From Natrinema salinisoli (GTDB lineage: Archaea > Halobacteriota > Halobacteria > Halobacteriales > Natrialbaceae), in the NCBI RefSeq assembly GCF_020405205.1, contig NZ_CP084469.1, forward strand, positions 3,968,001 to 4,032,000: a DNA stretch of 64,000 nucleotides, read 5' to 3'. The translations under genes and the position numbers were made by a program. This document shows, in pieces, positions 5,978 to 6,978 of the stretch. Positions within the stretch are counted from its first letter, which is position 1. The number at the start of each line of letters is the position of its first letter. A model generated the notes under the pieces. It had not been told where the DNA came from. It saw only the letters and a list, made by a program, of their open reading frames with translations, and made no database searches.

Positions 5978-6205
5978 ATGGGTTGTGAGGCGAAAGAATA
6001 CGGCCACTACTCACAGTGTCCGAGCAGCCTCTCCTCGCACACGATCCGGCGAGGGTCGATCACCCACCGGCTCCGCGAGGACTTTCCCGAGAAAATCGTC
6101 AGCGATCGCTGTGACGTGTCCTCGGAAGTCCTCGAGCGCCACTACGACCGGCGTACAGACCGCGAGAAGATGGAACAGCGACGCAACTTCATCGAAGATC
6201 TATAA
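5978..6205 (+). pseudogene. C-terminal remnant of a tyrosine recombinase (integrase)
   Basis: About 75 codons encode the last part of a phage-type integrase. The stretch SSHTIRRGSITHRL carries the HxxR of the catalytic core and LERHYDRRT carries the nucleophilic tyrosine, ending EQRRNFIEDL as haloarchaeal integrases do. An in-frame TGA at 5951-5953 cuts it off upstream, and the N-terminal DNA-binding and core domains are missing. The fragment ends 114 bases from the 3' end of tRNA-Ala, the arrangement left by an element that integrated into the tRNA gene. It should be inactive. Confidence 0.75.
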
Positions 6206-6530: not shown

Positions 6531-6547
6531 TATAAGTTATAGTATAG
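6531..6547 (+). promoter_or_regulatory. TATA-rich tract upstream of a hairpin cluster
   Basis: The tract TATAAGTTATAGTATAG is much more AT-rich than its surroundings and lies about 15-30 bases before the first of four hairpins. It could be the promoter of a non-coding RNA, or a distant promoter of the zinc-ribbon gene at 6769. Confidence 0.4.
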
Positions 6548-6553
6548 ACAGTA

Positions 6554-6663
6554 TTCGAACGGAAGCGACGTTTCCGAATCCGCCGCGGGGGCATGCGCCG
6601 AAATGCCCCGGGTGCGACAACACCCGAGACGTGGCTTCCAAACACGACCCGTTTGCAAGCCAT
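6554..6663 (+). ncRNA. Candidate structured RNA with four hairpins
   Basis: Four stems follow one another. They are CGGAA/TTCCG (6560-6564 with 6572-6576), GGGGCAT/ATGCCCC (6588-6594 with 6603-6609), GGGTG/CACCC (6610-6614 with 6621-6625), and a bipartite stem GTGGCTT/AAGCCAT plus CAAAC/GTTTG (6631-6643 with 6651-6663). Three of the four loops contain CGAC. It does not match tRNA, RNase P, SRP, C/D or H/ACA layouts that I can recognise. Strand is inferred from the TATA-like tract before it. It could instead be the structured leader of the gene at 6769. Confidence 0.4.
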
Positions 6664-6768
6664 GATTCAGTTCATCCTACCGCGACATAAACGTCTCGCA
6701 CGACGGCAGTATCGCCAGCACAGGTACACCTCGAGTCGGCCCGCCAACGGTTTCGACGGTGGTCACCG

Positions 6769-6978
6769 ATGACGGACGGCGATCCTCGCTCGTCCGATCC
6801 CGTCGCTACGGGTGACTCCGTCGTTTCCGAGGCCGCCGAGTCCGGGGATCGTCTGATCTTCCCGCCGTGTCCGCGGTGTGGCGAGCGGGTCATCACCGTT
6901 ACGTCTCGCGGGCCGCGGGATCACGTGGCCGGGCCGTGTGGCTGTCAGCTCACTCGCGGCGAAGTGAAGCGACTCTGA
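6769..6978 (+). CDS. Small zinc-ribbon protein
   Basis: 69 residues. The first 38 are a disordered acidic arm. The rest carries CPRCGERVITV at about 41 and CGC near 60, a treble-clef or ribbon-type site with three to four Cys ligands. Such small zinc proteins are abundant in haloarchaea and mostly uncharacterised; roles in RNA or DNA binding or in regulation are possible. The ATG at 6769 directly follows a weakly AT-rich stretch and the hairpin cluster, so it may be regulated by that RNA structure. Confidence 0.65.
   Translation: MTDGDPRSSDPVATGDSVVSEAAESGDRLIFPPCPRCGERVITVTSRGPRDHVAGPCGCQLTRGEVKRL

Follow-up and report, generated by a model that had tools for sequence, protein, structure and literature searches.

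A structured leader RNA at the start codons of small haloarchaeal genes, with the features of a two-state translational switch

Overview

A structured RNA that ends in the start codon of its gene recurs throughout the archaeal order Halobacteriales, and it is probably a new class of haloarchaeal mRNA leader that acts as a two-state translational switch. It was found in a stretch of 64,000 nucleotides of the Natrinema salinisoli chromosome (contig NZ_CP084469.1, positions 3,968,001 to 4,032,000, forward strand), referred to below as the window. On the best reading, the element would be filed as a riboswitch-like orphan leader, the RNA family being new but its kind familiar, rather than as an established riboswitch. 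The more specific proposal is that it is an undescribed natural riboswitch class, confined to Halobacteriales but present in most of its genera in up to ~ 30 copies per genome, which masks the starts of small zinc-finger and winged-helix genes in answer to a single signal; this we consider quite possible, if a little short of probable. A search of the openly licensed literature found no published description of this RNA.

Architecture of the leader

The first-pass annotation of the window had drawn attention to four stable hairpins strung closely together behind an AT-rich tract. All four are present where they had been placed, and the region folds to −49.2 kcal/mol as compared with −37.8 ± 3.4 kcal/mol in dinucleotide shuffles (z −3.3), none of 200 shuffles being as good. 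The element proper is the leader at 6561–6664, extending to ~ 6713 when a fifth covarying hairpin, which lies inside the coding sequence, is included. Its parts are given below. The support for a helix is expressed as an arm-swap z, in which arms are swapped between copies and the resulting loss of energy is given as z.

6531–6537, + strand: TATA box, TATAAGT, the predicted archaeal promoter of the leader
6560–6576, + strand: hairpin 1, five pairs (CGGAA/UUCCG), a local alternative to P1 that appears in the MFE fold; weak covariation, arm-swap z −2.8
6561–6574, + strand: 5′ strand of P1, GGAAGCGACGUUUC, the 5′ half of which doubles as the 5′ arm of hairpin 1; its partner is 6626–6639, with one G–G mismatch in this copy
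6588–6609, + strand: P2 (hairpin 2), seven pairs (GGGGCAU/AUGCCCC), the 3′ side of the loop being A-rich; arm-swap z −5.8
6610–6625, + strand: P3 (hairpin 3), five pairs (GGGUG/CACCC), directly abutting P2 and P1
6626–6639, + strand: switching strand, GAGACGUGGCUUCC, which is both the P1 3′ strand and the 5′ arm of hairpin 4 and covaries with both partners
6630–6664, + strand: P4 (hairpin 4), 8 + 5 pairs (CGUGGCUU/AAGCCAUG and CAAAC/GUUUG), with the start codon, 6662–6664, in its 3′ arm
6662–6772, + strand: leader ORF of 36 codons, MIQFILPRHKRLARRQYR..., starting at the AUG that closes the RNA element
6681–6698, + strand: P5, CGCGA-CAUAAACG-UCUCG, a hairpin within the leader ORF with one mismatch in the window copy; arm-swap z −7.4
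6769–6978, + strand: gene of a 69-aa CPxCG...PCGC zinc-finger protein, its start overlapping the leader stop (ATGA)

The first hint of P1 came from RNAalifold on the first alignment, in which GGAAGCCA at the 5′ end was paired with TGGCTTCC behind hairpin 3. This helix, of up to 14 pairs (6561–6574 with 6626–6639), closes a three-way junction around hairpins 2 and 3, which it encloses without spacers on the 3′ side. The TGGCTTCC strand serves in addition as the 5′ arm of hairpin 4, the 3′ arm of which ends in or beside the start codon. Necessarily, therefore, P1 and P4 are mutually exclusive, since the one strand is common to both.

The predicted energies of the two states lie close together. 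Constrained folding of 73 copies gives mean energies of −47.7 kcal/mol for the P1 state and −47.8 kcal/mol for the P4 state, and real copies are more balanced between the states than recombined ones (mean gap of 2.8 versus 3.5 kcal/mol), all as computed for 1 M NaCl and 37 °C, such that the values are not applicable to molar KCl. The window copy, in which P1 and P5 have one mismatch each, favours P4 by 4.8 kcal/mol. As for a ligand pocket, no strongly conserved unpaired core that would mark one was seen, there being at most an A-rich run in the loop of P2 and, in that of P3, a weak YUGNAR-like sequence.

Covariation of the helices

Both exclusive helices are maintained by covariation. Within the Natrinema-type family the arm-swap z values, which overstate independence because the copies are related, are −6.4 for P1 (−5.5 for its inner part; −2.8 for the local hairpin 1, which is thus the less well supported of the two) and −11.3 for P4 as a whole (−9.6 for the upper part and −4.7 for the lower); in two distant sets they are −9.4 and −11.4 for P1, and −10.7 and −4.3 for P4. 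Pairing in P4 is poorer in the most distant set, where the upper part is 63% paired.

Two covariance models extend the comparison, R1 for the Natrinema-type family and R2, which adds distant members. Cross-family alignments were taken from the covariance model, the MAFFT alignment (A3) having P1 out of register. In the combined alignment, A4, 30 of the 35 pairs have undergone compensatory changes (217 cells, as compared with 51 when shuffled) and 89.4% of positions pair, compared with < 49% in slid versions; in A5, which comprises 30 distant sequences from outside the R2 building set, the figures are 34 of 35 pairs, 223 cells against 71, and 87.9% against < 47%, although both alignments were fitted to the structure model and are so biased towards it. 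At the level of single helices, compensatory changes affect six of the seven P2 pairs in A4 and all seven in A5. P3 hardly varies within the family, where it is therefore of no help, but shows such changes at four of its five pairs in the distant A5, while a single pair of P5 accounts for 21 compensatory cells in A4. The suggestion of a structured RNA behind a promoter is thereby borne out, covariation of the stems in relatives having been proposed at the outset as the check on it.

In the outer nine pairs of P1, G–U is found 51 times and A–C six times on the element's strand. This asymmetry points to the sense RNA, rather than a DNA palindrome, as the target of selection.

The loop sequences fared differently. 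The display of CGAC in three of the four loops had called to mind protein-sequestering RNAs, with the caveat that the repetition could be chance. In 99 copies, CGAC occurs in loops 1–4 only 10, 0, 1 and 12 times respectively, and the full three-loop set is found in the window copy alone (1 of 99); the tetranucleotide occurs every 62 nt here on average, and its repetition in the loops is chance. The same loop motif, repeated and conserved in the manner of a CsrB-type RNA, was not found among the 99 copies. Moreover, the hairpins are not independent of one another, since P1 ties the first to the last and is in competition with it, and the RNA ends in a gene's start codon in every family examined, which marks the element as an mRNA leader acting in cis, as opposed to a sponge acting in trans.

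Promoter, leader ORF and zinc-finger gene

The AT-rich tract had been taken for a promoter, and the copies agree with this: of the 95 copies that have a TATA motif, 72 have its start 30–31 nt upstream of the first P1 base, and the A+T fraction per column is 0.87–0.99 across five columns. Given the usual spacing of archaeal promoters, transcription is predicted to begin with the first base of the structure or one adjoining it.

At the other end of the element, the ATG opens a short frame that begins like MIxYILPGYKRPARxxNR in all 17 copies of the own genome that were aligned and in 99 from related genomes. The frame is open over 28 codons in 93 of 93 copies, the other two frames being closed in 76 and 93, and in 88 of 99 copies its stop and the zinc-finger start overlap, by 4, 8 or 11 nt. 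That this overlap is exact despite leader lengths of 28 to 51 codons is, at the level of sequence, strong evidence that the leader ORF is translated and coupled to the second gene. Selection on the leader peptide itself was not detected when the copies were compared, there being no synonymous excess (2599 changes as against 3219 expected under random placement). Indeed, the conserved leader codons coincide with hairpin P5, which accounts at least partly for their conservation, and the conserved peptide that translational attenuation would call for is not seen.

The second gene encodes a product of 50–110 aa with CPxCG and PCGC motifs, a recognisable zinc-finger gene being missing in 11 of 99 copies. 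Its invariant residues are C34, P35 and C37 together with P56, C57, G58 and C59; in other words, it has the CPxCG motif, the second Cys pair and the size (less than about 100 aa) of the CPxCG small zinc-finger proteins. Neither it nor the leader protein matches a Pfam or NCBIfam family above cut-off, and the predicted zinc-finger structure (pLDDT 76, confident over the ribbon alone) has no significant relative in the PDB.

In annotated genomes, and in plasmid records with relatives, the leader ORF is unannotated and the small protein is often missed too (L277 2001–2109, L280 2001–2330, L281–L282); in Haloarcula halobia the annotated CDS begins ~ 100 nt downstream of the element's AUG. In one distant member, L274, a CPxCG protein follows the RNA directly, and its N-terminal codons contain P5. 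A single CPxCG gene of this kind may have been the origin of the separate leader ORF seen in Natrinema.

Copies and distribution

The own genome has 17 copies as judged by DNA similarity search and 26–27 by R1. Alignment of the 17 gives a common unit that runs from the TATA box through the hairpins to a conserved stretch after the ATG. No conserved neighbouring gene was seen among these 17 copies, the neighbours of which vary. Elsewhere, R1 counts 33 and 29 copies in two further genera; a different family contributes two genomes, with 15 and 21. On E-values from a shortened calibration, R1 matches 87 of 125 genomes of the host family and 134 of 392 of the order, and R2 matches 238 of the 392, in 75 of 95 sampled genera. 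In a phylum sample of 295 genomes all 25 positives belong to this same order, with no other sampled order positive. Against Rfam, the window gives only its tRNAs at the gathering threshold and, at a permissive threshold, weak chance matches (E 2–3); in 20 distant loci there is no Rfam match at the element.

Two associations were considered and set aside. The window copy adjoins a tRNA-Ala gene, but none of the 16 other own-genome copies has a tRNA within ~ 1.5 kb. A viral origin was likewise discarded, as nothing related to the protein or to one element type came up in IMG/VR, nor any relative in phage records.

Some features of the surroundings may be recorded here. Beside the same tRNA-Ala, a 75-aa ORF at 5978–6205 of the window (HTIRRGSITHRL...VLERHYDRRTDREKMEQRR) resembles by eye the C-terminal end of a tyrosine integrase, and is probably the scar of an integrated element. 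In the genus of the host family with 33 copies (L147, G087), two copies stand in tandem ~ 1.1 kb apart (1501–1651 and 2644–2794). Plasmid copies of Natrinema sp. SYSU A 869 and Halomontanus rarus (L281, L283) adjoin genes of PAS-domain signalling proteins, and one also a TFIIB gene, while in L170 (1953–2633) an element copy has a CRISPR array at a distance of a few hundred bases.

Distant members

The distant members have the same architecture with a P1 of very different sequence (GGAAGACCGGUGCC pairs with GGCACCGGUCUUCC in one instance, GAGACGGUCCCCGCUC with GAGCGGGGCUGUCUC in another), the 3′ strand of which can every time re-pair with a segment that ends at the AUG. In all families the AUG is 0–1 nt from the end of the P4 stem. 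The genes that follow are various. Their products include SWIM-like zinc-finger and PadR-like winged-helix proteins (PadR E 1.2e-11), CxxC proteins of 48–70 aa, and a CxxC family of 150–200 aa which has no Pfam match; plasmids of Haloarcula, Halorubrum and strain DL31 also carry this last family, the element again being at its start codon. That one RNA stands before several unrelated proteins argues for one common signal, and against simple autoregulation by each product.

In a genus of another family (g87; L155, L156, L162, L163, L173, L174), 15–21 copies per genome precede genes of a 48-aa CxxC protein (MIGNEAETCNGVESYQ...); to judge from these loci, the same RNA has undergone a separate expansion here, with another small protein. 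Outside the Natrinema-type family, copy-specific inverted repeats such as TTTCCTACATAGGAA flank the TATA box (L152, L161, L168, L247, L259, L268), as if each copy had a repressor site of its own.

Proposed mechanism and alternatives

As read from the sequence, transcription would begin at or near the first P1 base. In one fold, P1 would form around P2 and P3 as a three-way junction and the start codon would be free; in the other, the 3′ strand of P1 would pass to P4, and the start codon would be paired in this hairpin or lie against it. Compensatory changes maintain both folds, whose predicted energies are close. The junction may then be the sensing part and P4 the expression part, such that a putative signal (a small molecule, an ion or a common RNA-binding protein) would stabilise one state and turn the start codon on or off. 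In the Natrinema lineage this start codon opens the leader ORF, the translation of which would be coupled through the stop/start overlap to the small zinc-finger protein; in other lineages the RNA immediately precedes SWIM-like, PadR-like and other small genes. The leader has several features of a riboswitch, in that it is a structured, predicted 5′ leader conserved by covariation which reaches its start-codon junction in all families, with one strand common to junction and start-codon hairpin and two mutually exclusive folds of equal mean energy.

The main rival to a small-molecule riboswitch is a common protein. Here the leader would be bound either by the zinc-finger products, regulating their own or each other's translation, or by one common host RNA-binding protein, and we regard such a protein-bound leader as a possibility, albeit a somewhat doubtful one. 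Small zinc-finger proteins, a class that can bind RNA, are the products of most downstream genes, and the 26 paralogous copies would make a cross-regulated set; it may be added that, of the cis-regulatory RNAs of archaea, ribosomal-protein leaders are the best known (PMC7247131). Against this, the PadR-like, SWIM-like and 150–200 aa CxxC products are unrelated and cannot all be the same binder, an argument that bears on the encoded proteins and less on a common host protein, and the loop sequences are not conserved. A leader that does not switch at all is unlikely. Such a constitutive structure, in which only P1 or P4 would matter, could protect the 5′ end or place the start codon at a helix end for initiation without a Shine–Dalgarno (SD) sequence, as would suit both the constant position of the AUG at the end of P4 and the lack of an obvious ligand core. 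What speaks against it is that two exclusive helices covary independently, and that the P1 5′ arm and P4 3′ arm stay near copies of one another even where P1 differs completely between families.

The remaining alternatives are much weaker. Multiple copies dispersed over chromosome and plasmids could suggest a repeat acting as DNA, whether as an operator or as the terminus or target site of a mobile element, but we think this very improbable given the excess of G–U over A–C in P1, the lack of a match in phage and in two viral searches, and the position of each copy between a promoter and a start codon to which it is joined, with no sharp ends beyond. As for the free trans-acting RNA first suggested, with its repeated CGAC loops, stable hairpins behind a promoter are indeed what was found; with the three-loop set in a single copy and a start codon always at the end of the RNA, it is hardly credible.

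Significance and comparison with known systems

With this RNA in most sampled genera of one order, and in tens of copies per genome, one signal could set the translation of a whole group of little-studied small regulators. It also reveals small genes that annotation has overlooked or given the wrong start codon. Haloarchaeal mRNAs are often leaderless, and the element makes the control of haloarchaeal initiation without a Shine–Dalgarno site open to experiment. The same is true of the natural signals sensed by archaeal RNAs, natural RNA switches being almost unheard of in archaea (PMC8241225, PMC7247131).

At the level of genes, the closest parallels are the pairs Brz/Brb and Bp4/OE2447F of Halobacterium salinarum, in which small basic and zinc-finger proteins act jointly on transcription, bp4 lying upstream of OE2447F with a 7-bp overlap (PMC3184054). 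The Natrinema layout, with its overlap of 4, 8 or 11 nt, likewise joins a basic small protein to a CPxCG protein through overlapping genes, presumably on one transcript, and the likeness drawn here is one of arrangement. It does not extend to the leader, since the bp4 transcript, from its reported start, would have next to no 5′ leader and hence no such switch (from the numbers in PMC3184054).

Among archaeal RNAs there are few to compare, only a handful of cis-regulatory RNAs having been confirmed or even predicted (PMC7247131). The ribosomal-protein leaders, including the Halobacteria S15 leader (PMC7247131), are likewise structured, cis-acting and haloarchaeal, but precede different genes, and the element has no Rfam match. 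The fluoride (crcB) riboswitch, the only experimentally determined natural riboswitch in archaea (PMC8241225), is similarly an archaeal 5′ leader thought to act on translation, although its structure is unrelated, its genes are different and the element does not match its Rfam family or any other.

Translational riboswitches with a three-way or multi-branch aptamer offer the nearest comparison. They differ from the element, which masks the AUG itself and not the Shine–Dalgarno sequence, has neither a strongly conserved unpaired core nor an Rfam match, and in many of its copies precedes one family of small proteins. What the two have in common is the design: many copies, conserved by covariation, standing before several gene families, and a P1 strand common to the junction and to the hairpin that masks the start codon.
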